This document shows positions 17,474 through 43,833 of a stretch of DNA of 64,000 nucleotides, one piece after another. This DNA is from Streptomyces pacificus (GTDB lineage: Bacteria > Actinomycetota > Actinomycetes > Streptomycetales > Streptomycetaceae), in assembly GCF_011766325.1 (NCBI RefSeq), contig NZ_BLLG01000004.1, positions 310,001-374,000 on the forward strand. The letters run 5' to 3'. The translations under genes were made by a program, and so were the position numbers. Positions within the stretch are counted from its first letter, which is position 1. Each line of letters opens with the position of its first letter. Below the pieces are notes generated by a model. The model was not told the DNA's origin, did no database searches, and saw nothing but the letters and a program-made list of their open reading frames with translations.

Positions 17474-17557
17474 TAACTGGTCCGATACGGCGCCGGGGCT
17501 CCCGCTCCGGTGAAGTGGCTCACAGCGATCTTCCTACTGGCCGGTATGGTCGCCTCC

Positions 17558-18184: not shown

Positions 18185-18227
18185 CCGCGCCCCCGCCCCG
18201 GTGGACCGTGCGGCGCATGAGGGTTCT

Positions 18228-19586
18228 TCAGGACGCGCTTGCCCGGCGCCCCGACAGAGTGATGATCGCCGCTCCGAGCGCACAGCCGATGCCGGCTGCG
18301 AGATAGGCGAGGTGGTAGCCGGTGAGCCGGTCATCGCTGGTCGCTGCGACCAGGACCAGGAACGCCACTCCGACGCTGGCGCCGATCTGCTGTGCCACGA
18401 CATTCACCGCCCCGGCGACCGCATGTCGTTCCGGGTCGACACCGGTGAGCGCGGCGGACGTCATCGAGGGGAAGTTCAGTCCTTGGCCGATGCCGCTGAT
18501 CACCAGGCCGGGCAGCACATACAGCAGATAGCTGCCCTGGTGGGGTGTGCTCGTCCACAGCGCTGTCCCTCCGCCGATCAGGACGAGCCCGACGGCCATC
18601 AGCGTGCGCGGCGTGTACTTGGCAAGCAGGCGTCCGGTGACGAAGTTGGCGGTGAGGAAAACGCCCGCCGACATCGGTACCAGCGCGAGACCGGACTCGA
18701 ACGGAGAGTACTCCAGCATCCCCTGCAGATAGAGCGGCGCGAAGAACAGCATCCCGACCGAGCCCATGTACTGGAGGAACGCCGCCAGGCTCGCTGCCCG
18801 CACCGATGCCACCCGGAAGAGGCCGAGAGGAAGCACCGGGTCGGCATTGCGGTGCTCGCACACGACGAAGAGCAGCAGGAACACCACTGCGACGCAGAAG
18901 GAGCCCCATGCCAACGCGCCGCTGCTGCTCGCGCCTACGACCAGCAGGGTGAGGCCGATTGTGCCCGAGATCGCACCGGGCAGGTCCAACTGGCCGCCGC
19001 GCCCTGCACCACCGGGCAGCCCAGCGCGCGTCGCGGCCAGCACGGCCACCCCCACCACCACCGAGAACCACAGCACCGACCGCCAGCCGAGGAACTGGGT
19101 CAGCACACCGCCCAGCAGCACCCCGCCGCTGAAGCTCGCCGCGCCGACCGCCGCGTACACGCTCAAGGCCCGGTTGCGGGCCGGGCCGGCCGGAAACACC
19201 TCGGTCAGCAGGGCCAGTGCCGCCGGACCCGACAGGGCCGCGCCGATGCCCTGGACCGCACGCGCACCGAGCAGCACCCAGGTGCTCGGCGCCGCAGCCC
19301 CGACCAACGCGGCCACCGTGAACAGTGCGACACCGAGTTCGAACACCCGCCGTCGGCCGAACACATCGGCCAGGCGGCCGCCTACCAGCAGGAAGCCGGC
19401 GAACGTCACGGCGTAGGCAATCATGACCCACTGGAGCGTGCTGTCGTCCAGGTCGAAACGGGCTCCGACGGACGGCAGGGCGGCGTTGAGCACCCCGAGA
19501 CCACTCACATCCAGTGCGAGCGCCCCGGCCAGCACCCCGAGTGCCAGTCCCGGCCGGTGCCTTGCCCTCACCTCTGTACCGGTCAT
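18228..19586 (-). CDS. MFS drug-export permease (DHA2-like, 14 TM)
   Basis: 452 aa with about 14 hydrophobic segments. Motif A is visible in the loop after TM2 (GGRLADVFGRRRVFELG), and motif C-like GxxxGPxxGG character follows in TM5 (AVGAASFSGGVLLGGVL). These proteins export hydrophobic drugs by proton antiport at the cytoplasmic membrane. It is divergent from the lct operon and the likely exporter, and possibly the self-protection gene, of its product. The ATG at 19586 overlaps the stop of the small upstream frame (ATGA), indicating translational coupling. Codon use is close to its surroundings. Confidence 0.85.
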   Translation of the reverse strand: MTGTEVRARHRPGLALGVLAGALALDVSGLGVLNAALPSVGARFDLDDSTLQWVMIAYAVTFAGFLLVGGRLADVFGRRRVFELGVALFTVAALVGAAAPSTWVLLGARAVQGIGAALSGPAALALLTEVFPAGPARNRALSVYAAVGAASFSGGVLLGGVLTQFLGWRSVLWFSVVVGVAVLAATRAGLPGGAGRGGQLDLPGAISGTIGLTLLVVGASSSGALAWGSFCVAVVFLLLFVVCEHRNADPVLPLGLFRVASVRAASLAAFLQYMGSVGMLFFAPLYLQGMLEYSPFESGLALVPMSAGVFLTANFVTGRLLAKYTPRTLMAVGLVLIGGGTALWTSTPHQGSYLLYVLPGLVISGIGQGLNFPSMTSAALTGVDPERHAVAGAVNVVAQQIGASVGVAFLVLVAATSDDRLTGYHLAYLAAGIGCALGAAIITLSGRRASAS

Positions 19587-19936
19587 GCGGGCATCCCGGG
19601 GAACTCGCCGCCGGCCGACCGGCGGTTGCCGGGGTGCACCCGGATGACACTGCCGGAGCCGGACAGCCCGGTGGCCGACCCGCCGTCGCGTATCCGGTCG
19701 GCGGCAACCGCCCGAAGGAAGGGGTGGCTGAGCCGTGATCGGGCGAACGCTCCGCCCGCAACTGCTGCAGGCGTGCGGGGTTGCGCGGCCGCAAAGCGAT
19801 GTGCGGAATGGCCGGATAAGGCATCGTCGGCACCGCCTGTGCGCTGCTGCCGTGTTGTGGCGAATTCTATCCGTCCGGTGCCCATTACCAGGACGTCTGC
19901 GCCAGCCGACGTCGACTCGTCGTTCATGATTCTCAT
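19583..19936 (-). CDS. Hypothetical 117-aa protein coupled to the MFS gene
   Basis: Small frame directly upstream of the exporter gene, its stop overlapping the exporter's start by ATGA. Starts at ATG 19936 or ATG 19927; neither has a strong ribosome site. The composition is Ala/Gly/Arg-rich and includes MGTGRIEFATTRQQ and VIRVHPGNRRSAGG. I do not recognise it. It could be a real coupled gene, a remnant, or a translated leader; codon bias is weaker than in its neighbours. Confidence 0.35.
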   Translation of the reverse strand: MRIMNDESTSAGADVLVMGTGRIEFATTRQQRTGGADDALSGHSAHRFAAAQPRTPAAVAGGAFARSRLSHPFLRAVAADRIRDGGSATGLSGSGSVIRVHPGNRRSAGGEFPGMPA

Positions 19937-20881
19937 GCCGAGCAGCTTGCAGTGCCGCTCGCCCGCTGTCCAGGCCGGCCCTGCCCCCTACGTGTACGCC
20001 GCCGGAGCATGTCCCGCACATCCGCTGAGCATCAAGAGAACTCCGTGGTTTCCCACTCCGCTCAAGGCTCCCCCGGGGACGGCCGCCGCCGGCTTCCGCT
20101 GCTGCGACTGCACTGGGTTGCCGATACAGGCCGGTGGCACGTCGAAGTCGGCTCGCGAAGGAGAACGCCCTCTATAACCCACTACGCCCGAATCGCTCGC
20201 CGTCGTCGCCCAAGGAGCGAGTGAACCAGTCACTTCGGGCGGCAAATCACGCCAGTACACCTCATGACCCACTGCTCACACTTGTATCACCCTGAACAAG
20301 GTGGCAGCCTGAAGTTGTCGAGCAAGGGCCTCATGATGCCGCCAGTGCCTTGGGCATCGGGGCGGTGCAGTGGTTGTGCAGACGGAGAGTTGCGAGTGTA
20401 CGTCCCCGCCGGCAGTGCAGTCGCGAACCAGTGCGATCAGGAGGCATGATGCACGCCGGCGGCCGGACTACCGGGCAGCGATTCTCCAGCAGAGCGCGAT
20501 CTGTTTCAGCCACGATGCATTGACGGGGGTCAGGGGTGCGAGTACCGGTTCTTCTACCGCCATGCCTTTCTGTTCGGGAGGGGACAGCCTGCCCGGCAAG
20601 ACGAGGGCACCCTTTTGACCTGAACGGGCCTTGTCGCGTTCGGCGCCCCCGCGGCACTCGCCACGGCGAAGAGAAACCTCCCTGTCATCAACCATTCTCA
20701 CGACCAGCCGCCTGAGCGCTGACCCGCCAGGTTGGGAGTCATCGACCCTGGTCGTTTCCATCGGATCGGCATCATACGTGCCGCAGCTTCCTCATCACAT
20801 GGCCGGCTCAATTCCTGAGCCCTTCATCAGCTGGTCGCAAGCTCTGTCAGTTCATTCCGTCCGCCCTGACGAGGAGCCGAA
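19937..20881. other. 945-bp lower-GC divergent promoter region of the lct cluster
   Basis: No convincing long gene. Base composition drops visibly (for example around 20240-20300, close to half AT) compared with ~70% GC outside, typical of a Streptomyces cluster control region or a transfer junction. It must hold the promoters for the leftward exporter and the rightward lctA-F operon. No cluster-situated regulator gene is present. Confidence 0.6.
20446..20523 (+). CDS. Possible 25-aa leader peptide
   Basis: AGGAGG at 20439-20444 is followed by ATGATG and 23 further codons to a TGA at 20521. The ribosome site is excellent but spacing to the second ATG is short (4 nt). The peptide (MMHAGGRTTGQRFSSRARSV...) has no recognisable features. 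It may be a translated leader in the lctA 5' region, or chance. Confidence 0.2.
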   Translation: MMHAGGRTTGQRFSSRARSVSATMH

Positions 20882-23800
20882 ATGCCCCAAGAGCGCGCAG
20901 CACGAGATTCGCATGCCGTAACCAAGTTTCTGATTGCGCGTGTTGCTGAGCTGATGGACTTATCCGAGCATGCGGTGGACCGCCGGACACCGATGCACCA
21001 GTACGGTTTGGACTCGTTGAAGCTGTCGGCCCTTGCCGCCTCGTTGTCCGAATTCCTCTGCTGGAAAGTTCCGGTCACCTGGATGTGGCAGTATCCGACC
21101 ATCGACCAGCTGTCCCGTGCGCTTGCCGAAGGTCCTCGTGCCGCGGAGACCGCCGCCCCGGGCAATGCCCGCCGTACGGCATCGCATGAGCCCATCGCGA
21201 TCGTGGGCATCGGCTGCCGGTTCCCCGGAGGACCGGATCCCTCCTCGTTCTGGCAACTGATGGTCGAGGGCGGCGACGCGGTCGGCCCGGTGCCGGCCGG
21301 GCGACGCGAGCTCCTGAACGACAGGGTGCGGTGGGGCGGTTTCATCGACGGCATCGACCGGTTCGACCCGCTGTTCTTCGGCATCTCCCCCCGCGAAGCC
21401 GTGCAGATGGACCCGCAGCAGCGCCTCGTCCTGGAGCTGTGCTGGGAGGCGCTGGAGGACGCGGGGGTCGCGCCCGACAGCCTCGTCGGCAGCGACACCG
21501 GCGTCTTCATGGCCTCCTGCTGGGGCGACTACGCGGCCCTCGCGCACTACCGCGGGCCCGACAGCCAGATCACCCCGCACACCGCGACGGGCATGCACGA
21601 CGGCATCATCGCCAACCGCGTCTCCTACACCCTCGGACTGCAGGGCCCGAGCATGGCCATCGACGCCGCCTGCGCCGGGTCGCTGGTCTCCGTACACGTG
21701 GGATGCCAGTCGATCTGGCTGGGCGAGAGCGATCTGGTGCTCGCCGGCGGCGTGAACCTGAGCTTCGTCTCCGACTACTACACCGCGATGGACGCGATGG
21801 GCGCGCTCGCCCCGGACGGCCGCTGCAAGTCGTTCGACGCCCGCGCCAACGGCTACGTACGCGGTGAGGGCGCCGGCGTCGTCGCGCTCGCCCCGCTGAG
21901 CGCAGCACTGGAGCAGGACCTGCCGGTGTACTGCCTGATCAAGGGCAGCTCCTCCCACAACGACGGTCTGAGCAACGGCATGACCGCGCCGAACCCCCAG
22001 GCGCAGGAGAAGATGCTCCGCACCGCCTACCAACGGGCGGGCATCGCCCCGCACTTGGTGGACTACATCGAGTGCCACGGCTCCGCGACGCCGCTGGGCG
22101 ACCCGATCGAGGCCAACGCCATCGGCGCGGTCCTGGGCGGCGACCGGGCGGAGCCGCTGCGGCTCGGGTCCGTCAAGTCCAACGTCGGGCACCTGGAGGC
22201 GGCCGCCGGCATCGTCGGCCTGGTCAAGCTCGCGATGTCGATGCGCAACGGCGTGCTGCCGCCGAGCCTGCACTACACCGCGCCGAACCCGCAGATCATG
22301 TTCGACGAGTACCACCTCACCGTCCAGGACCGGCTGACGCCGTGGCCCCGACGGTCCGACGCGCGCCGCGGCGGGGTCAGCTCGTTCGGCTTCGGCGGCG
22401 CGATCTGCCATGTCGCCGTCGAGGAACTGCCCCGCCCCGAGGCCTCGCTGCTCCTCCTGGCCGCCGACTCCCGGGAGGCGCTCGCCGAGCGGGCCCGGGC
22501 GCTGCGGGACGAGAGCGACCTGCGCGCGGCCTGCCGCCGGGCGCCCGGCGACGGCGCGTTCCGGCTCGCGGCCGCCGCCCGCGACATGGCCGAACTCAGG
22601 ACGCAGCTGGACGCCTTCGGCACCGGTGAGACGGCCGCCGGACTGAGCGTCGGGGAGACGACCGGACGCACGCCGCGGGTGGCGTTCCTGTTCTCCGGCA
22701 ACGGCTCGCAGTGGGTGGGCATGGGCAGGCAACTGCTCGCCGGCATGCCGGTGTTCCGACGGTCCATGATGAGGTCCGACAAGCGGATGCGGGAGTTGCT
22801 CGGCTTCTCCATCGTCGAGCAGATGCTCGACCCCGAGGGCCGCATCGACGACATGGACGTCTTCCAGCCCCTGCTGTTCTCCCTCCAGGTCGCGCTGGCC
22901 GAGGCCTGGCGCTCGCTGGGCGTGGAGCCGGACGTCGTCCTGGGGCAGAGCGTCGGCGAGTTCGCCGCGTCGCACATCGCCGGTGCGCTCGACTTCGAGG
23001 ACGCCTCCCGCCTGGCCGCCCACCACGGCAGGCTCCTCCAGCAACTGGCCGTGGGACGCGGCGAGGGCATCGTGGTGATGACCGCCGCGGACGAGGTCAA
23101 GCGGCATCTGAGCGGCCAACTCACCGTGTCCGGATACAACGGCCTCGGCTCCACCCTGGTCACCGGCACCCCGCAGGAGATCGACGGCCTCGTCCAGCGG
23201 CTGACCGACGCGGGCGTCACGAACCACCGGGTGCGGATGGGCCACGCCCCGCACTCGCCGCTGGTCGACCACGTCCTGGCCCCGCTGAAGATCGAACTCG
23301 ACGGCATCACGCCGCGCACCGCACGCATCCCGATGATCTCGACGGTCACCGGCGAACTCGTCGACGGCGCGGAGCTCGGCCCCGACTACTGGGCGAAGAA
23401 CCTGCGCCAGGAGATCCGGGTGGTCGACGCCCTGACGAACCTGCGCGACCACGACATCGACGCGGTGGTCGAGCTCAGCCCGCACCCCGTCCTGCTCAAG
23501 TCCGTGTCGGAGATCCTGCCGGCTGCCACCCTGCCCTCGCTCACCCGCGGCGCCGACGCGGCCTCGACCCTGCTGGGCTCGCTCGGCGCGCTGTACACCG
23601 CCGGACTCACCGTCACCCAGAGCCCGTTCCTCCTGGGCGACCGGGGGCGGCACGCCAGGCCGAGCGGGGGCGACATCGCGGCCGACGAGCAGGTGCATCT
23701 GGTCCCCGTCACGGCGCGTACGGCCGACGCGCTGACCGACACCTGCCGTGAGCTGTCCAACCACGTCGAACGTGACGCGGGCCTGCGGGTCTCCGACCTC

Positions 23801-26800
23801 TCCTACACGCTCGCGGCACGGCGCACCCACCACAGCCACCGCATAGCGCTGTTCGCCCGCAACCGCCAGGACGTCCTGGACGGACTCGCCCGCGTCGCCG
23901 CAGGGCAGCCCCACCCCGACGTGCTCACGGGCACAGTCTCCGGCAGCGTCGACCGACGCGTTGCGCTGGTGTTCTCCGGCGGCGGAACGCAGTGGGTCGG
24001 CATGGGCCGGGAGCTCCTGCGCTCGCACACCGGATTCCGTACGTGGATGAACGCCTGCGACGCCGCCGTGCGCGCGGCGGGCGGCGGCCCGGTGCTCGAC
24101 CAACTCGCGGCCCCTGCCGACGAGGCCAGGTTTGAGGAGATGGACGTCCAGCAGCCGGTACTGTTCGCCCTGCAGGTCTCGCTGGCGAAGGTCTGGCTCG
24201 GACTCGGCGTCCGGCCGGCCGCCGTGGTCGGTCACAGCCTGGGCGAGGCCGCGGCTGCCTGCGTCGCGGGATCGCTGTCGCTGGAGGACGCCGCCCGCGT
24301 CGTGGTCGCCCGCTCCCACCTGCTCGAACGCAAGGCGGCGCCCGGCGCCATGATCTCGGTCGACCTGCCGGAGGACGAGCTTGGGCCGAGACTCGCGCCG
24401 TATGCCGGGCACGCGGCGATCGCCGTGGTCAACAGCCCCACCAGCGCGGCGGTCTCGGGCTCGCCCGAAGCCGTCGGCGCCCTGGAGGCCGACCTGGAGC
24501 GGGAGGGGATCCCCACCCGGCGGATCCGCGTGGAGCGGCCGGTGCACAGCCCCGGCATGGACCCGCTGCTCGAACCACTGCGCGAGGCCATCGACGGCAT
24601 CACGCCGCTGCCGAACACCGCCGAGTTCCGTTCCACGGCACTGGCCGGCGCGGTGAACCCGGTCGCCGACGCCGACTACTGGGTGCACAACCTGCGCAAC
24701 CAGGTCCGGTTCGCCGAGACGATCGGCACGCTGGTCGACGAAGGCGTCTCCACCTTCATCGAGATCGGGCCGCACGAGACGCTGCGCGGCGCGGTCGAGG
24801 AGATCGCGCTGAGCCGTGGTGCCCAGGTGCACGCGGTCAACTCCCTGCGGCGCGGCGAGAGCGACGTCCGCTGTCTGCTGGGGGCCGCCGCTTCCCTGTA
24901 CGTCAGGGGCCTTCCGCTGACCTTCGCCTCGTTGTTCGCCGACGACGTCGAGGTCGTGGAGACCCCGCTCGTGCAGTGGCAGAAGGACCGCTACTGGCTG
25001 GACACCACGCCGACGCCTCGCCGTGACGTCGCGCAGATCCCCGGGCCTGCCCCCGCCGCGGCGGTGACCGTGACCGAAGCCGCGGTCGCCCCGGTGGAGG
25101 ACGGGGCCGCGGGGAAGGAGGGCAGACCGGTTGAGGAGATCGTCCTCGGTGAACTCGCCGACGCGCTGGGCGTCCCGGTGAGCAGGTTCGACGTCAAGGC
25201 AGGTCTGCGCGAGTTCGGTCTGGACTCGATGCTGGCGATCCGCCTGGTCAACAGGATGCAGGCACTGTTCGGACAGCGGGTGTCGCCGGTCGTCTTCCTG
25301 GACGGGCGGACGATATCCGAGGTCGTCGACCACTTCGTCGAGATCACCGGCGGGCCGGCCACTCCCCCGGCCACTCCTCCGGCCGCCCTGCCGAAGCCCG
25401 TCGCGGTGGCGAAGCCGGAGCCCGAGGCGGCGGCCGAGCCCGCACCCGGGGCCGGGCCCACCCAGCCGGCCTTCCTCGACGGCCTCTCCGAGCTGGACGC
25501 CGAGGAACTCGTGGAGGAGCTGGAGGCGCGCGGCCTCCTCGACCCCGCCGACGCACCGGCCCTGGACCAGCTGCGCGCCGAAGGACTCGGTCTCGAACTG
25601 GCACCGGCCTCGCACGGCCAGGCCTCGCTGTGGTTCATGCAGATGGTCTCGCCGGACGCCGTGCCCTACAACTTCATGGTCGCCGCCCGGATCAGGACCG
25701 AGGTCGACGAGAGGGCGCTCGACCGCGCCGTACGGGCCGTGGTCGAGCGGCACCCCGCGCTGCGCACGATCTTCGTGGAGGCCGGGGGCCGTCCGTACCA
25801 GGTCGTCCTGGACGAGCCGCTGTACGAGTTCCAGGTGGTCGACAGCACGGACCTGGACGACGAAGAGGCCCGCGAGGAGCTGGCGCGCCTCGGGCATCTG
25901 CCGCTCGACATGGACAACGGACCGCTCGTGCGGGTCGTCCTCATGGCGCGTGGGCCCGCGGACCACTACCTGCTGGTGCTCGTCCATCACATCGCCTCGG
26001 ACGCGGCATCGGCGGACGTGATGATCCGCGAACTCCAGGAGTACTACGCGGCTGCGGACGCCGCCGAGGGCGCGCCGGCCGCCCCGTACACGGAGTTCGT
26101 CGAGTGGGAGCGGCAGTGGCTTGCCGGCCCCGCGGCCGAGGCGGCGCTGGACTGGTGGTCGCAGAAGCTGGCCGACCCGCCCGCGCACCTCGACCTGTCC
26201 GCCAAGGAGCGGCCCCCGGGCGTCACGTACGAAGGACGCGACATCGCGTTCCGCTGGAGCGCCGAAGAGTCGCGCCTGCTCCGGGAGTTCGCGGTGCGCG
26301 AGGGTGTGTCGATCAGCACGGTCGTGCTTGCCGGTTTCTTCGCCACGCTCAACCGCGCGGCGAAGACCGACGACGCCGTTGTGGCCACCGCCATCGCCCA
26401 ACGCGGCCAGCCCGGCTGGGAATCCGCCGTCGGGTACTACCTCAACACGGTGCTCGTGCGGGCGAAGCCCGCCGGTGACCGCAGCTTCCGCGACCTGCTG
26501 CGCGAGGTGCACACCTTCTCGCTCGGCCTCCTGGAGCACATGGACTACCCCCTCGACCTGCTGGCGTCCCAGCTGAAGCCGCCGCGGGCCGAGGGCCGGT
26601 CCCCGTGGTTCGACGTGGTGGTCAACTGGCTGTCCTCGGACGCCTTTCCGCGCTCCGTCAAGCTCTTCCACGGCGTCGGCGACACCGTCTCGCCGGGCGG
26701 GACCCTGCCGCTCGAGCCGCTCCAGGTCCGCAGGCACCTCGCCAAGTTCGACCTGGAGATCTCGATGGCCGACATCGACGGCGAGGTCGCGGGACACGTC

Positions 26801-26947
26801 CAGTACAAACCGAGCTACCTGGAAAGGCAGACCGTGACGGCACTGATCGCGCTCTACCGCACTGTGCTCTTCGACTCGATCGCCCGACCTGACCTGGCCC
26901 TCGAGGACATCGCGTCCGGCGGGCTCCCCGAGGAGGCGGACCGGTGA
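20882..26947 (+). CDS. lctA: PKS/NRPS hybrid synthase, ACP-KS-AT-AT-ACP-C (LctA-type)
   Basis: 2021 aa. Domains: loading ACP (~15-85, GLDSLKL, phosphopantetheine Ser45); KS (~103-515) with Cys264, His399 and His437; AT1 (~598-900, GQSVGE, Ser690); AT2 (~1025-1330, GHSLGE, Ser1119); ACP (~1415-1490, GLDSMLA, Ser1449); condensation domain (~1573-2005, HHIASDA at 1702-1708). AT1 has His715 where extender ATs carry the carboxylate-binding Arg, while AT2 has Arg1144; AT1 is therefore loading-type or vestigial and AT2 the extender AT. No KR, DH or ER, so a beta-keto unit is made and then condensed by C with an aminoacyl-PCP. The tandem-AT layout is that of SalA (salinosporamide) and, as I recall, LctA (lactacystin). 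GAGGAG lies 5 nt before the ATG. Codon 27 is TTA (20960). Overlaps lctB by GTGA. Confidence 0.88.
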   Translation: MPQERAARDSHAVTKFLIARVAELMDLSEHAVDRRTPMHQYGLDSLKLSALAASLSEFLCWKVPVTWMWQYPTIDQLSRALAEGPRAAETAAPGNARRTASHEPIAIVGIGCRFPGGPDPSSFWQLMVEGGDAVGPVPAGRRELLNDRVRWGGFIDGIDRFDPLFFGISPREAVQMDPQQRLVLELCWEALEDAGVAPDSLVGSDTGVFMASCWGDYAALAHYRGPDSQITPHTATGMHDGIIANRVSYTLGLQGPSMAIDAACAGSLVSVHVGCQSIWLGESDLVLAGGVNLSFVSDYYTAMDAMGALAPDGRCKSFDARANGYVRGEGAGVVALAPLSAALEQDLPVYCLIKGSSSHNDGLSNGMTAPNPQAQEKMLRTAYQRAGIAPHLVDYIECHGSATPLGDPIEANAIGAVLGGDRAEPLRLGSVKSNVGHLEAAAGIVGLVKLAMSMRNGVLPPSLHYTAPNPQIMFDEYHLTVQDRLTPWPRRSDARRGGVSSFGFGGAICHVAVEELPRPEASLLLLAADSREALAERARALRDESDLRAACRRAPGDGAFRLAAAARDMAELRTQLDAFGTGETAAGLSVGETTGRTPRVAFLFSGNGSQWVGMGRQLLAGMPVFRRSMMRSDKRMRELLGFSIVEQMLDPEGRIDDMDVFQPLLFSLQVALAEAWRSLGVEPDVVLGQSVGEFAASHIAGALDFEDASRLAAHHGRLLQQLAVGRGEGIVVMTAADEVKRHLSGQLTVSGYNGLGSTLVTGTPQEIDGLVQRLTDAGVTNHRVRMGHAPHSPLVDHVLAPLKIELDGITPRTARIPMISTVTGELVDGAELGPDYWAKNLRQEIRVVDALTNLRDHDIDAVVELSPHPVLLKSVSEILPAATLPSLTRGADAASTLLGSLGALYTAGLTVTQSPFLLGDRGRHARPSGGDIAADEQVHLVPVTARTADALTDTCRELSNHVERDAGLRVSDLSYTLAARRTHHSHRIALFARNRQDVLDGLARVAAGQPHPDVLTGTVSGSVDRRVALVFSGGGTQWVGMGRELLRSHTGFRTWMNACDAAVRAAGGGPVLDQLAAPADEARFEEMDVQQPVLFALQVSLAKVWLGLGVRPAAVVGHSLGEAAAACVAGSLSLEDAARVVVARSHLLERKAAPGAMISVDLPEDELGPRLAPYAGHAAIAVVNSPTSAAVSGSPEAVGALEADLEREGIPTRRIRVERPVHSPGMDPLLEPLREAIDGITPLPNTAEFRSTALAGAVNPVADADYWVHNLRNQVRFAETIGTLVDEGVSTFIEIGPHETLRGAVEEIALSRGAQVHAVNSLRRGESDVRCLLGAAASLYVRGLPLTFASLFADDVEVVETPLVQWQKDRYWLDTTPTPRRDVAQIPGPAPAAAVTVTEAAVAPVEDGAAGKEGRPVEEIVLGELADALGVPVSRFDVKAGLREFGLDSMLAIRLVNRMQALFGQRVSPVVFLDGRTISEVVDHFVEITGGPATPPATPPAALPKPVAVAKPEPEAAAEPAPGAGPTQPAFLDGLSELDAEELVEELEARGLLDPADAPALDQLRAEGLGLELAPASHGQASLWFMQMVSPDAVPYNFMVAARIRTEVDERALDRAVRAVVERHPALRTIFVEAGGRPYQVVLDEPLYEFQVVDSTDLDDEEAREELARLGHLPLDMDNGPLVRVVLMARGPADHYLLVLVHHIASDAASADVMIRELQEYYAAADAAEGAPAAPYTEFVEWERQWLAGPAAEAALDWWSQKLADPPAHLDLSAKERPPGVTYEGRDIAFRWSAEESRLLREFAVREGVSISTVVLAGFFATLNRAAKTDDAVVATAIAQRGQPGWESAVGYYLNTVLVRAKPAGDRSFRDLLREVHTFSLGLLEHMDYPLDLLASQLKPPRAEGRSPWFDVVVNWLSSDAFPRSVKLFHGVGDTVSPGGTLPLEPLQVRRHLAKFDLEISMADIDGEVAGHVQYKPSYLERQTVTALIALYRTVLFDSIARPDLALEDIASGGLPEEADR
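20960..20962 (+). promoter_or_regulatory. Rare TTA leucine codon in lctA
   Basis: In-frame TTA, codon 27 of lctA, read by the bldA tRNA in Streptomyces. It is the only TTA I found in the lct operon and lies near the start of its first gene, so operon translation may wait for bldA expression. Confidence 0.75.
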
Positions 26948-28764
26948 CCGTGACCCTGCACTCCGAGTTCATCGAGCAAGCGGTCAAGAACCCCGACGCG
27001 ACGGCGGTCTACTCCGACGCCGGCGTCCTGACCTACGGCGAACTGGACGAGCGCTCAGGCCTGTTGGCCGAGCGGCTCGTCGCCGACGGCGCGGGGCCGG
27101 GTGTCCCGGTCGGCATCTGCATCGAGCGCACTCCCGACCTGCTCGTCGGCATCCTGGCGGTGCTGCGGGCCGGCTCCTGCTATGTACCCCTGGACCCCGG
27201 CTACCCGGCCGAGCGGCTGACGTTCATGGTCCGGGACAGCGGCACCCGTCTGCTGCTGACCACGCCCGCGTCCCGGGCCAGCTGCCCGGCGGGGCCGACC
27301 GTGGTCGTGCTCGACGAGACGGTGACGACCGAGCCCGGCGAGGAGCCCGTGCCGGTCGTGCCCGGCGACACCGCCTACATCATCTACACGTCGGGGTCCA
27401 CCGGCCGGCCCAAGGGCGTGGCCATCCACCACAGCGGCTGTGTCGCCATGCTGTCCGAGATGGACCGGCTCTTCGAGGGCTGCGACCTGAGCGGTGTCTC
27501 GGCCGCGAGTTCGGTCTGCTTCGACATGTCCGTGATGGAGATCTTCGCCGCGCTGTGCCGCGGTGGCGCCGTCGTGCTCGTGGAGAGCGCCGTCCACCTG
27601 CCGGAGAGCCGGTACGTCGACAAGGTCACCCACCTCAACGTCATCCCGTCGGTGATGAACAGCCTGCTGGACGCCGGGTATCTGCCGCCGAACGTACGCA
27701 CCGTCGTGTTCGGCGGCGAGCCCTTGCGGCGCAAGCTGGTGGACCGCGCCTACCGCGAGACCAACGCCGACCGGGTCTTCAACGCCTACGGCCCCACCGA
27801 GGGAACCGTCTTCTGCTCGTTCGGACTTGTGCCGCGGCACGCGACGGACGAGCCGACGATCGGCCCGCCGTCGGCCCACGCCCGTGCCTATGTGCTCGAC
27901 GAGAACCTGAACCGGCAGCCGGTCGGCGTGCCCGGCGAGTTGTACATCGGCGGTGTCGGCCTGGCCCACGGCTACGTCAACCGGCCCCGCACCACGGCCG
28001 AGCGGTTCGTGCAGGACCCGTTCGTGGACGGCGAGCGCATGTACCGCACCGGCGATGTCGTCACATTCACCACCGACGGCGAACTCCAGTTCGTCGGCCG
28101 CACGGACCACCAGGTCAAGCTGCGCGGCTACCGCATCGAGCTGGAGGAGGTCGAGGCCCGCCTCACCGGCTGCCCCGAGGTACGGGAAGCCGCCGCCGCC
28201 GTACGGGGCAACCGGCTCATCGGCTACGTCGTGCCCGAGGGGAAGGCCCGGGACGGCGTCTGGGTGGACGCCGCGCTCCAGACCGCCGTCAACGGCAGGC
28301 TCGCCGCCGAGCTGCCCGACTACATGGTGCCGGGGACGATCGTGTCCCTGACCGCGCTGCCGTTGGCACCGGGCGGCAAGCTCGACCGGGCCGCGCTTCC
28401 CGAGCCGCCGGCCGCCGGCTCCGACGGTCCCATGACGGCCGCCAGTACGCCGACCGAGGTGGCGGTCTCGGAGATCTGGGGCCAGCTGCTCGACCTCGAA
28501 CCGGCGAGCATCGACGTCCGGGCCGCCTTCTACGACCTGGGCGGCGACTCGCTGCTGCTCATCCGCCTCGCCCGGCTGATGACCCGGCGGTTCGACCGCC
28601 GGGTCCGCGTGCCCGACCTGTTCAGCTTCCGTGACATCTCCTCCCTCGCCCGCTGGCTCGACGAGGAGAGCGGCGCCACCCCGGAGGTGGTCCGCACGGC
28701 CCGCCGCCGTGCGGGCGCCCGCCGTGCCGCGCTGCGCGGCCGCGCCGCCCCCGGCAGCAACTGA
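26944..28764 (+). CDS. lctB: Stand-alone NRPS module A-PCP (LctB/SalB-type)
   Basis: 606 aa. Adenylation domain (~1-500) with A3 YTSGSTGRPKG, A5 NAYGPTE, A7 YRTGD and A10 GGKLDR; PCP at ~505-575 with LGGDS, carrier Ser536. It activates one amino acid and holds it on the PCP for the C domain at the end of lctA. By eye the specificity residues read D194 M195 M198 N232 V255 G257 A281 V289 F290 plus Lys of A10; this matches no code I know well. Leucine is expected by analogy with lactacystin. A basic Arg/Ala-rich tail of ~30 residues follows the PCP and no thioesterase is present. The GTG start overlaps the lctA stop (GTGA). Confidence 0.87.
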   Translation: MTVTLHSEFIEQAVKNPDATAVYSDAGVLTYGELDERSGLLAERLVADGAGPGVPVGICIERTPDLLVGILAVLRAGSCYVPLDPGYPAERLTFMVRDSGTRLLLTTPASRASCPAGPTVVVLDETVTTEPGEEPVPVVPGDTAYIIYTSGSTGRPKGVAIHHSGCVAMLSEMDRLFEGCDLSGVSAASSVCFDMSVMEIFAALCRGGAVVLVESAVHLPESRYVDKVTHLNVIPSVMNSLLDAGYLPPNVRTVVFGGEPLRRKLVDRAYRETNADRVFNAYGPTEGTVFCSFGLVPRHATDEPTIGPPSAHARAYVLDENLNRQPVGVPGELYIGGVGLAHGYVNRPRTTAERFVQDPFVDGERMYRTGDVVTFTTDGELQFVGRTDHQVKLRGYRIELEEVEARLTGCPEVREAAAAVRGNRLIGYVVPEGKARDGVWVDAALQTAVNGRLAAELPDYMVPGTIVSLTALPLAPGGKLDRAALPEPPAAGSDGPMTAASTPTEVAVSEIWGQLLDLEPASIDVRAAFYDLGGDSLLLIRLARLMTRRFDRRVRVPDLFSFRDISSLARWLDEESGATPEVVRTARRRAGARRAALRGRAAPGSN

Positions 28765-28797
28765 ATCATCACCTCGACCTGAGGCAGGAGCCCTTCC

Positions 28798-30582
28798 ATG
28801 ACCAAAAGCCCCGAGCAGGACCACGACCCGGGCGATGTGGCCGTCATCGGCATGTCCCTGCGCGCGCCCGGTGCCCGCACCAAGGAGCAGTTCTGGGACA
28901 ACCTCGTCCACGGCAGGGAGTCCGTGTCGTTCCTGGCCAAGGACGACATCCACGTCGACGAGACCCTGATCCACAGCCCGTTCTACGTGCGGGCCTGCGG
29001 TGTGCTCGACACATACGACACGTTCGACCCGTCGGTGTTCGGCATCAGCGACCGGATGGCGGCCGCGATGACACCGGAGAACCGGCTGTTCCTGGAGAGC
29101 GCATGGGAGACACTCGAGGACGGCGGCTACGACCCGGACCGGCTCAACGCCGAGATAGGCATGTACGGCGCCAACAACCCGCAGACCGCCGCTCTCTACA
29201 GCTCCCCGCCGGACCGCGTGTCGGTCGGTCCCGAGGCGATCGAGGCGAGCCTGGCCTGGTCGCCGGACACCATGACGTCCAACGCCCTGTACTACATGGG
29301 TCTCACCGGTGAAGCCGTCACCGTCGCCGCGGTCTGCGCGGGCTTCCACTACTCGGTGCATCTGGCCTGCCAGTCGCTGCTGCTCGGCCAGACCGACATG
29401 GCGATCGCCGGCGGCTCGATGGTCCGTCTGCCGCACCCCCGCGGTCACCTGTGGGAGGAGAACCGCATCCTGTCGAAGGACGGCCACTGCCGCCCGTTCG
29501 ACGCGCGCGGCACCGGCACCGCACTGTCCAGCGGCGTCGTCACGGTGCTGCTCAAGCCGCTGGGGCAGGCGGTCGCCGACCGCGACCACATCTACGCCGT
29601 GGTCAAGGGCTCGGCCGTGAACAACAACGGCGTCAGCGTGATGGCCTACGGCCTGGCCCAGCCCGAGCGGATGAGCGCCTGCATCGCCAACGCCATGGAG
29701 GTCGGCGGCGTCACCCCGGACACCGTCTCCATGTACGAGGCCAACGGTCTCGGCATGCCGATGACCGACGAGCTCGAAGTGCACGCCGCGAGCATGGCCT
29801 TCGGCAAGCAGACCGCCACCACCTCGCTCGGCGGTGTCAAGGGCAACGTGGGCCACGGCGGCGTGGTGTCGGGCGGTTTCGGCGCCGTCAAGGCCGCGAT
29901 GTCCCTGTACCACAGGACACTGCCGATGACGATCAACCTGACCGAGGTCAACGAGGACCTCGACCTCCCCAGCACCCCGTTCGTGCCGCAGCTGGAGACG
30001 GCGGACTGGGAGACGGAGTCCGGCATCCGCCGCGCGGGCATCACCTCGATCGGCGGTGGCGGCTACAACGCGCACCTGGTCCTCGAAGAGCCACCGTCCC
30101 TGACCGGGCGTGCTCCCGAGGCCGAGGGCAGGCCGCGCCTGGCCACGCTGTCCGCCCTGGACGACGAGGCGCTCGCCCGGCAGCGCGCACGGCTGAAGGA
30201 CTGGCTGGCCGCCCGCCCCGACCTGCGTCTGGACGACATCTGCTTCAGCCTCAACCTGGGCCGCAAGGTGATGGCGCGCCGCTGGGCGGCGGTGGTCCGC
30301 AGCCGGGGGGAACTGGTCGCCGCGCTGTCCGGCGACTCCGCCCACGGCCCGGCCACCGAGACCGCCGCAGCGCCGCGGGTGGACATCGACGCGTTCCAGC
30401 GCAGCGAGGAGGGAATCGTGGGGACCGGGAAGGACGCGCAAGAGCTGTCCGAGCTGGCCGCCGCCTGGGTGACCGGCCAGCAGGTCGACTTCGGCTCCCT
30501 GCACCAGGGGGAGACCAGCCGCCGGGTGCCGCTGCCCACGTATCCGTTCCAGCCGCGCCGGTTCTGGCGTACGGACTGGTGA
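28798..30582 (+). CDS. lctC: Ketosynthase-like cyclase/release enzyme (LctC/SalC-type)
   Basis: 594 aa stand-alone KS fold. The nucleophile is Cys180 (AAVCAGFHYS), the second catalytic His is His353 (KGNVGHGG), but the usual EAHGTGT His is replaced: EANGLG, Asn316. It ends with a KS-AT linker and the post-AT motif LPTYPFQPRRFW without any AT between, as if an AT had been deleted. SalC, the salinosporamide counterpart, takes the PCP-bound chain onto its Cys and performs an intramolecular aldol reaction and beta-lactone closure rather than decarboxylative condensation; the His-to-Asn change fits a non-decarboxylating role. It replaces a thioesterase. AGGAG lies 9 nt before ATG 28798. Confidence 0.86.
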   Translation: MTKSPEQDHDPGDVAVIGMSLRAPGARTKEQFWDNLVHGRESVSFLAKDDIHVDETLIHSPFYVRACGVLDTYDTFDPSVFGISDRMAAAMTPENRLFLESAWETLEDGGYDPDRLNAEIGMYGANNPQTAALYSSPPDRVSVGPEAIEASLAWSPDTMTSNALYYMGLTGEAVTVAAVCAGFHYSVHLACQSLLLGQTDMAIAGGSMVRLPHPRGHLWEENRILSKDGHCRPFDARGTGTALSSGVVTVLLKPLGQAVADRDHIYAVVKGSAVNNNGVSVMAYGLAQPERMSACIANAMEVGGVTPDTVSMYEANGLGMPMTDELEVHAASMAFGKQTATTSLGGVKGNVGHGGVVSGGFGAVKAAMSLYHRTLPMTINLTEVNEDLDLPSTPFVPQLETADWETESGIRRAGITSIGGGGYNAHLVLEEPPSLTGRAPEAEGRPRLATLSALDDEALARQRARLKDWLAARPDLRLDDICFSLNLGRKVMARRWAAVVRSRGELVAALSGDSAHGPATETAAAPRVDIDAFQRSEEGIVGTGKDAQELSELAAAWVTGQQVDFGSLHQGETSRRVPLPTYPFQPRRFWRTDW

Positions 30583-30584
30583 CC

Positions 30585-31820
30585 ATGAGTTCACCGGCAC
30601 TGGACACCCTGGACCTGGGCGACCCGGACACCTTCGCGGACCACGACCTCGACGCGTTCTGGCGCCGCCTGCGGGACACCGCACCCATGCACTGGAACCC
30701 CCCGGCCGACGGCCGCCGCGGATTCTGGGTGCTCTCCCGCTACGACGACATCGTGGCCACCTACCGGGACAACGCCAACTTCACGTCCGAGCGCGGCAAC
30801 GTGCTGGTCACGCTGCTGGAGGGCGGTGACGCCGGGGCCGGCCGAATGCTGGCCGTCACCGATGGGCACCGCCACCACGAGCTGCGCAAGATCCTTCAGC
30901 GGGTGCTCTCGCCGAGGGTGCTCAACGAGGTGGCGCAGACGGTGCGGGCCAACACCCGGCAGTGGATCCGCGAGGCGGTCGAGTCGGGCGGCTGCGACTT
31001 CGCCGAGCAGATCGCCAGCCGGATCCCGATGACCACGATCTCGAACCTGCTCGGCGTGCCCGAGCAGGACAGGGAGTTCCTGCTCTCGCTCACCAAGACC
31101 GCGCTGTCGACCGACGACGAGGACGTCGACGAGGTCGACTCCGAGATGGCCCGCAACGAGATCCTGATGTACTTCATGGAAGTCGTCGAGGAGCGTCGCG
31201 ACTCCCCGGGCGACGACGTGATCAGCATGCTGGTCGGCAGTTCCATCGACGGTGCCCCGCTGTCCGACGAGGACGTCGTGCTCAACTGCTACAGCCTGAT
31301 CATCGGGGGCGACGAGACCAGCCGGCTCACGATGATCGACTGCGTCCGCACACTCGCGGTCGAGACCGGCCAGTGGCGGCGGCTCAAGCACGGGGAGGTC
31401 GCGGTCGACACCGCGGTGGACGAGGTGCTGCGCTGGGCCTCGCCCACGATGCACTTCGGGCGCAGCGTCGTCCGCGAGACCGAGCTGCACGGTGTGACGC
31501 TGCGTCCCGGCGAGATCGTCACGCTGTGGCACGCCTCGGGCAACCGGGACGAGCGGGTCTTCGAGCGGCCCGGGGATTTCGACCTCGGCCGCACCCCCAA
31601 CAAACACCTGGCCTTCGGGTACGGACCGCACTTCTGCCTCGGCTCCTACCTGGCCAAGGTGGAGATCTCCGAACTGCTGCAGGCACTGCGGGACTTCACC
31701 ACAGGCTTCGAGCAGACCGACGAGGCGCTGCCCATCCGGTCCAACTTCCTCACCGGGTTCTCGACGCTCCCGGTGCGGTTCCTGCCCGATCACTCCGGAC
31801 TGAAGGAGGTCCTCCAATGA
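30585..31820 (+). CDS. lctD: Cytochrome P450 (LctD-type, probable amino-acid beta-hydroxylase)
   Basis: 411 aa soluble bacterial P450. Haem ligand Cys351 in FGYGPHFCLG; ExxR is E280-VL-R283; the I-helix reads GGDETSR (241-247) instead of AGxDT(T/S), with Glu before the Thr. It starts 2 nt after the lctC stop. In the lactacystin and salinosporamide logic the beta-carbon of the amino acid must be hydroxylated, so hydroxylation of PCP-bound leucine or of the free chain is the likely reaction; this is inferred. A separate ferredoxin and reductase must come from elsewhere in the genome, as none is encoded here. Overlaps lctE by ATGA. Confidence 0.86.
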   Translation: MSSPALDTLDLGDPDTFADHDLDAFWRRLRDTAPMHWNPPADGRRGFWVLSRYDDIVATYRDNANFTSERGNVLVTLLEGGDAGAGRMLAVTDGHRHHELRKILQRVLSPRVLNEVAQTVRANTRQWIREAVESGGCDFAEQIASRIPMTTISNLLGVPEQDREFLLSLTKTALSTDDEDVDEVDSEMARNEILMYFMEVVEERRDSPGDDVISMLVGSSIDGAPLSDEDVVLNCYSLIIGGDETSRLTMIDCVRTLAVETGQWRRLKHGEVAVDTAVDEVLRWASPTMHFGRSVVRETELHGVTLRPGEIVTLWHASGNRDERVFERPGDFDLGRTPNKHLAFGYGPHFCLGSYLAKVEISELLQALRDFTTGFEQTDEALPIRSNFLTGFSTLPVRFLPDHSGLKEVLQ

Positions 31821-32017
31821 GCGGCAACCCCTTCGACGACGGCAGCGAAGACGGCGGGCCGGTGGTGACGGGCGCCGCCGGGCGGTACACGCTGCGGCGC
31901 CCGCGCCCGGACGTGCCGAAGGGCCGGCGAATCGTCCACTCCTGCCCCGACCGCGACGGCGCCCGCAACCACGCCGGACGGCACTTCACCGCGGCGGTGG
32001 GAACGCAGGCGGCCTGA
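31817..32017 (+). CDS. lctE: Degenerate MbtH-like protein (LctE-type)
   Basis: 66 aa. The N-terminal NPFDD and the spacing GRYTLRRPRPDVPKGRRIV correspond to MbtH NPFDD...GQYSLWPxxxxVPxGW, so the fold is recognisable. However the Trp residues that bind the A domain are missing: SLWP became TLRR and PxGW became PKGR (TGG to CGG in both places), and the C-terminal Trp is Phe. MbtH proteins are small partners that stabilise or activate NRPS A domains; whether this form can still bind LctB is open. It overlaps the lctD stop by ATGA and precedes lctF by 31 nt. Confidence 0.7.
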   Translation: MSGNPFDDGSEDGGPVVTGAAGRYTLRRPRPDVPKGRRIVHSCPDRDGARNHAGRHFTAAVGTQAA

Positions 32018-32048
32018 CGCTGACAGACACCCGACCGCAGGAGTGCGC

Positions 32049-32744
32049 ATGAACATCTACATCTCAGGACAGGGGGCCTTCGCGGTGCAGGTCGCGGAAG
32101 CTCTCCTCGATGAAGGGCACAAGATCGCCGGTGCGGCCGCGCCCCGGCTGCGCAAGGGGTGGTCCGACGAGAGCAACGCGATGTCCTGGGACCGCCTGCG
32201 CTCCTGGGCGTTCCCCCGGGACATCCCGTGGACGGACTCGGCCGAACTGCGCGCGATGCATATCCCCGACGGGGTGGACATCATCGTCGCCGCGCACTCG
32301 CACGCCTTCCTCGGCCGCTATACGCGGGCCAGGGCCTCCGTCGCCACCATCGGCTACCACCCCAGCCTGCTGCCGCTCCACCGCGGCAGGGACGCAATCC
32401 GGTGGACGATCCGGGACGGCGACAAAGTGACGGGCGGGAGCGTCTACCACCTCACCGAGCGCACCGACGCCGGTCCGCTCGCCGCACAGGAGCACCTGTT
32501 CGTTCCCCCGGGTTCGACCGCGCAGAGCCTGTGGCGCGAGCATCTGGCCCCGCTCGGCGTGCGGTTGCTGCTGAAGGTGGTCGCCGACCTCGCCGGGGGC
32601 AGGCGGATCGAGGTCCCGCAGGACGAGAAGATGGCGACCTGGGAGCCCGCGATGAACGCACAACCGCTGTTCAAGCCCGAACTCATCGCACTGCCCGGAA
32701 CAGCGTCCGTCGACGGCAGCAGGTGGGCACTCCACGCGCAGTGA
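32049..32744 (+). CDS. lctF: Formyltransferase family protein (LctF-type, formylates the loading ACP)
   Basis: 231 aa with the N10-formyl-THF formyltransferase fold. Signature IGYHPSLLPLHRGRDA with catalytic His104, and Asp140 in TERTDAGP. Fmt and PurN have Asn two residues before the His; here it is Gly102, and the GYHPSLLP(x)HRG form resembles the hydrolase domain of formyl-THF dehydrogenase. In the lactacystin pathway, as I remember it, the homologue moves a formyl group to the phosphopantetheine thiol of the LctA ACP, giving a formyl starter. That explains why lactacystin bears H where salinosporamide bears methyl. AGGAG lies 5 nt before ATG 32049. Last gene of the operon. Confidence 0.82.
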   Translation: MNIYISGQGAFAVQVAEALLDEGHKIAGAAAPRLRKGWSDESNAMSWDRLRSWAFPRDIPWTDSAELRAMHIPDGVDIIVAAHSHAFLGRYTRARASVATIGYHPSLLPLHRGRDAIRWTIRDGDKVTGGSVYHLTERTDAGPLAAQEHLFVPPGSTAQSLWREHLAPLGVRLLLKVVADLAGGRRIEVPQDEKMATWEPAMNAQPLFKPELIALPGTASVDGSRWALHAQ

Positions 32745-33069
32745 ACCTCTCCTCTCTCACCCCGGTCGGCAGGCGATCCCGACGGGGTGGAGGGCGGCGG
32801 ACCGGCTGGTGCTGCAGCGGGTCCTTGCGGGACACAGCAGAGCGGCTGCCACGGGCCGACAGCCCCGTGGCAGCCGCTCCGCTGTCTCGTGCGGCCTCAG
32901 GCGCCCCTCGCCTGAATCAGCGACCTGGGCCTCAGATCGATCCAGTCGGCCTCCACACCCTCCGGGCACTCCCGCTTGCCGCCCTCGGCCCGTACGGTGG
33001 TCCGGCCCCCGAGTCTCGCCGGGCCCGGCACCCGGCTCACGCCCCGGACGGCAGGCGCCGAGCCCCTGT
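32745..33069. other. 325-bp convergent interval at the right edge of the cluster
   Basis: No gene seen. It separates the rightward lct operon from the leftward amidohydrolase and contains the terminator at 32840-32879. No direct repeats or tRNA end that would mark an integration site. Confidence 0.5.
32840..32879. terminator. 16-bp hairpin terminator after lctF
   Basis: Perfect 16-bp stem (arms 32840-32855 and 32864-32879, core GCGGCTGCCACGGG and its complement) with an 8-nt loop, between convergent genes. It should stop transcription from both sides. Confidence 0.85.
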
Positions 33070-33882
33070 CTACAGGGCGAAGACACGGCGCGCGTTGCCG
33101 GACAGGAACAACGCCTCCGCCTCCTCGTCGAGTTCCAGCCGGTCCAGATGCTCCAGGGCACGGGCGGGGGTGATCATCGGGTAGTTCGTGCCGAAGAGGA
33201 CCTTGCGGCGTCCCCGGCCGCGCAGATAGTCCACGAGTTCGGGGGGGTAGCGGCGGGCGGTGTAGGCGCTGGTGTCGATGTAGACGTTCTCGTGCTTGTC
33301 GGCGACCGCGATCATCTCCGTCGTCCACGGGTAGCCGATGTGCCCGCAGACGATGGCCAGTTCCGGGAAGTCCAGCGCCACCTGGTCGATGTAGGGGATC
33401 GGCCGCCCGGTCTCCGACGGCCTGAGCGGGCCGGTGTGCCCGACCTGGGTGCAGAAGGGGATGCCGAGTTCGACGCATTCCGCGTACAGCGGGTAGTACA
33501 GCCGGTCGGTGGGCGGCAGCTGCCACAGCCACGGCACCACGCGCAGGGCCACGAACCCCAGCTCCCGCACCGCCCGGCGCAGTTCCCGCACCGCCTCCAT
33601 GGGCCGGGCGAGGTCGGCGCCCGCCACCCCGCGCAGCCGACCGCCCGACGCGGCGACGAAGCCGGCCACCTCGTCGTTGCTGATCAACGCACCCTGCGGC
33701 CCGTACCAGGCAGCGGACAGGCCGATCTCCACGTCCGCCGACTCCAGCGCGGCCACCGTCAGCTCCACCGGCAGCGCCTCCTCCAGGAGCCCGAGGCCGG
33801 TCCATCTCCGCAGGGACTCGAACATCTCATGACGTGAGTGGCGCAACGTCGGATGCTGCATCCACACATCGATGACCGGCAC
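33070..33882 (-). CDS. Amidohydrolase family 2 protein (ACMSD-like TIM barrel)
   Basis: 270 aa. TIM-barrel metal-dependent hydrolase or decarboxylase of the Amidohydro_2 type: FCTQVGHTG, IVCGHIGYPW (metal His) and KVLFGTNYPMI near the C-terminus (the family usually has GSDxP; here GTNYP, so the final Asp is Asn). The N-terminal HxH metal motif is weak: VIDVWMQH carries a single His, so metal binding may be altered or mononuclear. It lies 198 nt upstream of icmA on the same strand and, from memory of S. coelicolor synteny, is a core gene rather than part of the lct cluster. Substrate unknown. Confidence 0.8.
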   Translation of the reverse strand: MPVIDVWMQHPTLRHSRHEMFESLRRWTGLGLLEEALPVELTVAALESADVEIGLSAAWYGPQGALISNDEVAGFVAASGGRLRGVAGADLARPMEAVRELRRAVRELGFVALRVVPWLWQLPPTDRLYYPLYAECVELGIPFCTQVGHTGPLRPSETGRPIPYIDQVALDFPELAIVCGHIGYPWTTEMIAVADKHENVYIDTSAYTARRYPPELVDYLRGRGRRKVLFGTNYPMITPARALEHLDRLELDEEAEALFLSGNARRVFAL

Positions 33883-34039
33883 GGCTCAGGCCCCTCCTCC
33901 GGGCCGCTGCGGCGAACAGACCCCGCCGGCGGCTGAGCGAACGCTTAACCGGACTCTAGCGGGGGCCCCGGCCGACGGGCTACCCGTCAGTAGGGATATG
34001 TCGGCACCGGCCGTCCGGCACCGGACCGCGGGCCCGGCC

Positions 34040-34080
34040 CGGAAACCGGCGGCCCCGGCCGGGAAACCGGCGGCCCCGGC
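34040..34080. repeat. Two copies of GGAAACCGGCGGCCCCGGC
   Basis: The 19-bp unit occurs twice in tandem, with one extra base or two between copies, directly after the icmA stop; a third partial copy reaches into the end of icmA. Possibly part of a terminator. Confidence 0.5.
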
Positions 34081-43667: not shown

Positions 43668-43833
43668 CCGCCGGGATTCCCGGCCCGGTAGAGTGGAGCG
43701 CTCCGGGCCGGGGCCGGGTCGGGGCCGCGCCGCGTCCTCGTTGCTGATCTGACACCATTTCCCCGGGGGGCCGTTCAGGCGAACGGCACTCGTCTGTAGA
43801 GAGTTGCGACCAGGGGACGGATGGGACCGCGCA

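Follow-up and report, generated by a model that had tools for sequence, protein, structure and literature searches.

What supplies the first carbon of a gamma-lactam-beta-lactone warhead when the assembly line that would build it is encoded next to a formyltransferase? This question is raised by a gene cluster of Streptomyces pacificus, a strain with a genome of 6.7 Mb, of which we analyzed one stretch of 64,000 nucleotides, hereafter called the window (contig 4, NZ_BLLG01000004.1, positions 310001-374000). The known relatives salinosporamide and cinnabaramide start from an acetyl unit. The reading that we favor, with a probability of about 0.7, is that the window carries a lactacystin/omuralide-type cluster, acquired as a cassette, in which the formyltransferase (FT) would deliver a formyl group to the loading acyl carrier protein (ACP) of the polyketide synthase (PKS). 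Lactacystin is described as the first-in-class proteasome inhibitor (PMC6760633). The product of the window cluster would very probably be a proteasome inhibitor that resembles it, and the comparison presented here points to an origin of the aldehyde carbon that can be tested directly.

The operon (20882-32744, plus strand) and a divergent MFS exporter on the minus strand were inspected as open reading frames (ORFs) and Pfam domains. An original prediction, made from the letters of the DNA, had proposed a hybrid of PKS and nonribosomal peptide synthetase (NRPS) with the order ACP-KS-AT-AT-ACP-C (KS, ketosynthase; AT, acyltransferase; C, condensation domain), followed by a protein with an adenylation domain and a peptidyl carrier protein (A-PCP), a KS-like protein, a P450 and an FT, with an MFS exporter beside them. 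ORFs with this order and these domains lie where it had placed them:

18228..19586, minus strand: MFS exporter of 452 aa (PF07690; start codon ATG at 19586)
20882..26947, plus strand: PKS/NRPS hybrid (SalA-like) of 2021 aa, ACP (loading)-KS-AT-AT-ACP-C by Pfam domains, with the KS motif DAACAGSL
22673..23581, plus strand: its first AT domain, of starter type by alignment to DEBS and other ATs, motif GHAPHS
23957..24901, plus strand: its second AT domain, of extender type by the AT alignment, Arg kept, motif ERPVHS
26944..28764, plus strand: NRPS A-PCP (SalB-like) of 606 aa by Pfam, with DMMNVGAVFK as extracted pocket code
28798..30582, plus strand: SalC-type standalone KS of 594 aa, predicted aldol/beta-lactone cyclase by its match and identity to PDB 7s2x
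30585..31820, plus strand: cytochrome P450 (SalD-like) of 411 aa (PF00067)
31817..32017, plus strand: decayed MbtH-like remnant of 66 aa, with no Pfam match and with intact orthologues in relatives
32049..32744, plus strand: FT of 231 aa from its ATG (PF00551), the GTG at 32043 being a possible alternative start
about 32840..32880, plus strand: hairpin 3' of the operon by folding energy, a probable terminator without a U tract
18185..34080, no strand: segment missing at the same site in relatives, which includes a non-core amidohydrolase gene (33070-33882)

The kinship that had been proposed with the SalA/SalB/SalC trio is upheld. From end to end the standalone KS matches SalC of Salinispora (PDB 7s2x; E 2.8e-280; 68.1% identity), with a PDB score of 934 bits against 537 bits for the next match, and it carries the SalC-type motifs VCAG and EANG (VCSG and EANG in SalC; VCxG in general). 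SalC, taken from PDB, was the one Sal protein compared by sequence; the remaining kinship is that of the domain order, a PKS with two ATs and a C domain being found together with an A-PCP protein and a P450. Membership of the cluster in the SalA/SalB/SalC-type gamma-lactam-beta-lactone family is supported by these comparisons. The core of the salinosporamide cluster in Salinispora is given as salABCDEF (PMC8609351), and it shares with the window the PKS, the A-PCP protein, the SalC-type KS, the P450 and the position of the MbtH gene; the window differs in the presence of an FT and in that no SalI-like subunit or precursor-pathway gene was recognized inside the insert. That the cluster brings no precursor-pathway genes had also been foreseen, and no gene for a crotonyl-CoA carboxylase/reductase (CCR) or for cyclohexenylalanine was recognized within 18185-34080, the rest of the genome not having been searched.

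Among 392 Streptomyces genomes, 22 match the standalone KS at E <= 1e-100; 17 of these (window included) do so over the full length or nearly and at 66% identity or more, while the other five drop to 38-40%. At E 1e-120, only the window's own genome and one other of the same genus matched in a set of 394 genomes of the class. Genomes of the same genus group yield KS proteins identical to those of named Streptomyces loci, in keeping with a place of the strain in this genus. A scan of named genomes, of whose 225 relatives the best 80 were used, gave 35 at 63-92% identity, which span Streptomyces, Kitasatospora and Streptantibioticus, and 45 at 31-34%; no Salinispora was found among these best 80 of 225. 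A total of 53 loci was merged to 44 nonredundant ones, three S. alfalfae loci and seven pairs having identical KS proteins, so that the window cluster can now be compared across 44 loci of these three genera. The S. alfalfae loci (L046, L047 and L048 of the XY25 assembly) lie on separate contigs and represent either a real triplication or an assembly artefact.

Thirty-seven of the 44 loci, window included, have the FT and seven do not. In a tree of the KS proteins the FT-type loci occupy one side of a branch with a support of 100/99; the FT-less loci group together if SalC is set aside, its placement between the two groups being weakly supported (93/55). One of the FT-less loci, L072, belongs to Streptomyces sp. 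DSM 15324, which is named as a cinnabaramide producer (PMC6022970), and compared with this cinnabaramide-type locus the window has identities of 58.9% for the PKS, 65.6% for the NRPS, 63.7% for the KS and 70.8% for the P450. A CCR-like gene was noticed in L072 and in the FT-less L067 by eye and without a family search.

The best PDB relatives of the FT are the hydrolase domains of 10-formyl-tetrahydrofolate (10-formyl-THF) dehydrogenases (E 1.2e-19), and among NCBIfam models it comes closest to fmt, with a score far below the cut-off. The motifs GYHPSLLP and ERTDxGP are present in 37/37 FT-type rows, window included; their parts YHPSLLP and TDxGP line up with 10-formyl-THF dehydrogenase, and the catalytic His and Asp of the Formyl_trans_N fold are in place. 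The usual formyltransferase motif is NxH, and here a Gly stands in the place of its Asn; 10-formyl-THF dehydrogenase, an enzyme that hands its formyl group to a phosphopantetheine arm, is likewise without this Asn. With the features of the family in place, the FT is predicted to be a 10-formyl-THF formyltransferase, and formyl-THF is a plausible precursor. A structure prediction (10 relatives) was poor, with a mean pLDDT of 54.4, and was not used. The distribution of the FT follows that of the cluster: 15 of the 17 Streptomyces genomes with a SalC-like KS at 66% or more have it and two do not, and only one (G330) of the remaining genomes among the 392 does. Two FT-less genomes searched whole gave no FT at E 1e-30, and none was found in the fetched stretch of the other FT-less loci.

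For the row comparisons of the PKS, proteins of less than 1800 aa were omitted, and 34/37 FT-type and 6/7 FT-less loci were used. The PKS of the window has a mean identity of 83.0% to its FT-type and 59.8% to its FT-less homologues, and 85 fixed differences separate the groups (KS, 33; first AT, 20; C domain, 14; second AT, 10; other parts, 8). The enrichment in the KS is only suggestive because this is also the most conserved domain. The active site of the assembly-line KS reads AACAG in 34/34 FT-type rows and TACSS or TACSA in all six FT-less rows, and the motif of the first AT has His788 in GHAPHS in the FT-type versus Tyr in GYA(A/S)HS in the FT-less group. Alignment to the DEBS ATs places a His at the carboxylate-binding Arg of the first AT, whereas the Arg is retained in the second; an AT without this Arg is of the starter type and one that bears it of the extender type. 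The His for Arg is common to both groups (34/34 and 6/6 rows). The catalytic Ser, His and Cys that were checked and both ACP serines are all retained. It is the first AT that speaks for a starter that is still acetyl, since it keeps its catalytic residues and is without Arg like that of the FT-less group, as an acetyl-loading AT would be; the product would then be methyl-branched and salinosporamide-like, with a leucine side chain, and the FT would formylate something else. We consider this very improbable, given that the active site of the KS and the motif of the first AT bear fixed changes in the FT group, and given also that the FT goes with the PKS in a natural chimera.

This chimera is found in Streptomyces sp. 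SID12501 (genome G323; L074 176-12714 and L123 1218-16129). Its PKS is closer to the FT-type (79.6%) than to the FT-less loci (60.6%), as is its SalC-like KS (80.2% vs 66.6%), whereas its NRPS (70.4% vs 61.5%) and its P450 (78.4% vs 70.6%) are closer to the FT-less loci; it has an FT and an intact MbtH gene. The FT thus segregates with the PKS and the SalC-like KS and not with the NRPS and P450, and it is thereby tied to the PKS, not to the amino acid. N-formylation of leucine as the role of the FT is for this reason not favored, and the product class is not known to carry an N-formyl group. Upstream of the chimera are genes for a prephenate-dehydratase-like protein (just below the Pfam cut-off), a PhzF-like protein, a Zn-dehydrogenase that is a possible CCR and a 3-hydroxyacyl-CoA-dehydrogenase, and these are candidates for cyclohexenylalanine/CCR extender genes. 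Also upstream are the genes for an exporter, 88.5% identical to that of the window, and for a SalI-like proteasome subunit. As a natural chimera, SID12501 is predicted to make a hybrid warhead.

The pocket of the A domain, at positions that we take to be those of the PheA numbering, reads DMM(N/H)VGAVFK in 33/37 FT-type loci. At position 322 an Ala stands in 36/37 of them, whereas all seven FT-less loci and the chimera have Gly. The code of the window matched no leucine code that could be cited; a difference of its A-domain pocket from that of cyclohexenylalanine-type clusters is supported by these residues. For the P450 of the window, the mean identity is 85.9% to homologues of the FT-type and 70.4% to those of the FT-less group.

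Taken together, the KS and AT motifs, the kinship of the FT and the A pocket fit a formyl-started, methylmalonyl-extended and leucine-derived product, that is, the lactacystin/omuralide skeleton. The genes, their homologies, the diagnostic residues, the insertion and the linkage of FT and PKS are established; the catalytic steps and the product, all of which we infer from them, would be the following. With 10-formyl-THF as donor, the FT would pass a formyl group to the phosphopantetheine arm of the loading ACP at the N-terminus, either directly or by way of the starter-type first AT. The second AT would load methylmalonyl on the internal ACP, and the KS would condense it with the formyl group to a methylmalonic-semialdehyde thioester, which the C domain would join to the leucine carried by the PCP of the A-PCP protein. 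The P450 would hydroxylate the leucine side chain, and the SalC-like KS would catalyze an intramolecular aldol reaction onto the aldehyde, giving the gamma-lactam, and then close the beta-lactone of omuralide. The producer would convert the lactone to lactacystin by means of mycothiol, a housekeeping thiol of which N-acetylcysteine would be left, and export would fall to the MFS pump. We regard it as rather probable that formyl, loaded by the FT on an ACP of the assembly line, serves as a C1 starter of the polyketide, so that the ring carbinol carbon of lactacystin would derive from the one-carbon pool, and that the switch between acetyl and formyl warheads was made by a swap of FT and PKS, the two lines having recombined in SID12501.

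Several observations weigh against a formyl starter. The first AT retains its catalytic Ser and His (34/34), which is odd if the FT loads the ACP directly, and its loss of Arg does not mark formyl use, since it is shared by FT-type and FT-less loci. The residues of AACAG are smaller than those of TACSS, with no obvious fit to a smaller substrate and no obvious shrinkage of the pocket. The second-AT motif differs from the classical YASH, and the fixed differences extend to the C domain (14) and to the second AT (10). Because the FT-bearing loci are one clade, the changes in KS, AT and FT amount to a single evolutionary association and not to many. In addition, the FT of G330, which is 76% identical, belongs to an unrelated NRPS-PKS cluster whose KS has an ordinary DTACSSS. 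This gene (L138, 11638-12333) is accompanied by serine hydroxymethyltransferase, thioesterase and PheRS-beta-like genes, and an aminotransferase gene was noticed there by eye; the cluster may be a second system using one-carbon units.

Feeding work on lactacystin, moreover, reportedly derived its C3 unit from isobutyrate/valine via methylmalonic semialdehyde, in which case no separate formyl unit is needed. The gamma-lactam-beta-lactone would then be made with a ready-made methylmalonic semialdehyde as its C3 unit, the FT having an accessory role such as formate release or proofreading; the methylmalonyl-CoA-mutase-family gene to the right of the cluster points in the same direction, though it is in place in 8/8 cluster-less sites. 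We hold this to be unlikely, since the full ACP-KS-AT-AT-ACP line keeps its catalytic Cys, Ser and His in 34/34 FT-type rows, and since the FT constantly accompanies this type of PKS and was found neither in the seven FT-less loci nor in the two whole FT-less genomes.

The original prediction had included an MbtH-like protein, but the ORF at 31817-32017 is instead a decayed remnant. It has no Pfam match at E 0.001 and a marginal one in PDB, where the best named MbtH protein is at E 0.037, whereas the orthologue in S. sp. UNOC14_S4 matches MbtH at 4.9e-13; a functional MbtH in the window cluster is rejected on these results. The ORF has no Trp and is 67% identical to its orthologue in L042, to which the neighboring P450 and FT are 94% and 92% identical, and it is for this lack of Trp and for a divergence far above that of the P450 and FT that we read it as decayed. 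The MbtH gene is intact-like in 18, decayed in one (the window) and absent in 18 of the 37 FT-type loci, and intact-like in six and absent in one of the seven FT-less loci, after two loci were relabelled by hand from decayed to intact-like, L044, where a stop follows the conserved core, and L067, an AVW variant; the automatic scoring of intact, decayed and absent was 17/2/18 and 5/1/1. Absence means that tblastn gave no match at E 1e-4 in the 700 bp next to the end of the P450 gene; L061, scored as absent, keeps a stub of 20 aa. As no homologue was found in 18/37 FT-type clusters, MbtH seems dispensable in this group.

This decay, of which the window is by the by-hand reading the sole case among the 37 FT-type loci, is a reason to suspect that the cluster is silent or degenerate in the strain; further reasons are a TTA codon in the PKS gene, with a possible dependence on bldA, and the fact that no regulator gene was recognized among the operon ORFs. 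Such a state nevertheless appears quite unlikely to us, for the other six genes (exporter, PKS/NRPS, A-PCP, KS, P450 and FT) are open and conserved, and sister clusters seem to dispense with MbtH.

The original prediction had likened the gene order to lctA-lctF, and the gene content of the window may match that of the lct cluster of S. lactacystinicus, apart from the decay of MbtH; no locus of that species was among the named ones of the best 80 relatives. Like the window, that lactacystin cluster encodes an NRPS-PKS for a leucine-derived gamma-lactam-beta-lactone, a product that for the window is predicted. The lactacystin cluster of Streptomyces lactacystinicus ("lactacystinaeus") OM-6519 is cited as having been expressed in S. 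avermitilis (Komatsu et al. 2013, via PMC4563238). Cloning and expression of a lactacystin cluster have thus already been achieved by others, and what merits a test is the formyl-starter mechanism, together with the chimera. A literature search gave no match to exact phrases on lactacystin biosynthesis or formyl-ACP and, among the matches listed, no gene-level paper on lactacystin biosynthesis, subscription journals being mostly outside its coverage, so that such work may exist. The salinosporamide/cinnabaramide subtype is characterized by the lack of an FT and by a SalI-like subunit, and the window has neither feature.

How, then, would the producer be protected? SalI is reported to confer resistance in Salinispora (PMC6804068). 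A SalI-like proteasome beta subunit is encoded near 6/7 FT-less clusters, in one case as seen in the duplicate genome G725 and in another truncated by the end of the locus. The chimera L074 has one nearby as well, while none was found within the fetched flanks of the other 36 FT-type loci. The three cluster-linked beta copies that were compared have Phe45 and Val49, at residues that we take to matter for SalI-type resistance, and the housekeeping copies have Ala49 in 20/20 cases. The window genome (G000) has only two proteasome-family genes, a neighboring pair on another contig, and its beta subunit has Ala49; on this count and this residue, a dedicated resistant subunit in the strain is rejected. 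A third proteasome gene lies away from the cluster in 7/14 FT-type genomes searched whole (chimera aside), and all seven of these unlinked subunits carry Phe45/Val49, as do the unlinked copies in the FT-less G272 and in G001, where a subunit but no cluster was found in a genome that is 79% complete. These nine unlinked third beta genes (L184-L192, in G151, G364, G003, G327, G252, G104, G297, G272 and G001) all have Phe45/Val49 and are 78-87% identical to the cluster-linked copy of SID12501.

A division in which FT-type producers would rely on a pump and FT-less ones on a resistant subunit is weakened by the seven FT-type genomes with an unlinked subunit; the resistant-type subunit is often unlinked from FT-type clusters or absent from the genome. 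The window genome and six others have the housekeeping pair only and must rely on something else, perhaps export together with thiol conjugation. The N-acetylcysteine of lactacystin may come from mycothiol; for N-acetylcysteine natural products in general, such an origin is reported as a hypothesis (PMC9150181).

The cluster had been said to be inserted between conserved genes, and this holds for the genes at 17510 and 34081, which are near-adjacent in half of the relatives compared. The site was compared in eight same-genus relatives, out of 19 other genomes carrying the thioredoxin-TPR gene: the two genes share one 20-kb stretch in 8/8, with a gap of 67-169 bp (between alignment ends) in four and of 0.8-7.2 kb in the other four, versus 15.9 kb in the window. 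The claim of core genes on both sides was right for the left-hand thioredoxin-TPR gene, present in 20/21 genomes (own included), and wrong for the first right-hand gene, the amidohydrolase, found in only 4/21 (own included); the conserved right-hand neighbor is the methylmalonyl-CoA-mutase-family gene at 34081-35781 (566 aa). G003 has the site without a cluster, yet carries the cluster on another contig, and from this and the differing gaps we conclude that the site is variable and that the cluster behaves as a cassette. None of the flanking genes tested adjoined the cluster in the short fetched flanks of 16 other loci. The mutase-family protein, which is possibly the large subunit of an isobutyryl-CoA mutase, is encoded at this place in all eight relatives, whose site has no cluster, and its nearness to the cluster is therefore probably due to chance.

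At the left end of the cluster, an exporter start at ATG-20021 was rejected as an over-extended ORF: the Pfam match begins only at residue 167 of the long ORF, and the protein from ATG 19586 matches the SID12501 exporter over 452/452 residues, which together argue for the latter start. Of the 34 FT-type clusters whose PKS is full-length, 30 have a homologue of this exporter (>50% identity), in 28 cases divergent and upstream, against 0/6 FT-less clusters with a full PKS. At the right end, where the original prediction had a terminator, the stretch 32820-32900 folds with -58.7 kcal/mol (z -6.9) and holds a strong hairpin at about 32840-32880; this is a probable terminator, though it has no U tract, and a terminator scan called no such site after the operon. 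Farther to the right, an ORF of 1326 aa (43804-47784), rich in Ala, Glu and Arg, coincides with the GC and AT-skew peak of the window at 44-48 kb and presumably resembles the Streptomyces coiled-coil polarity scaffold Scy.

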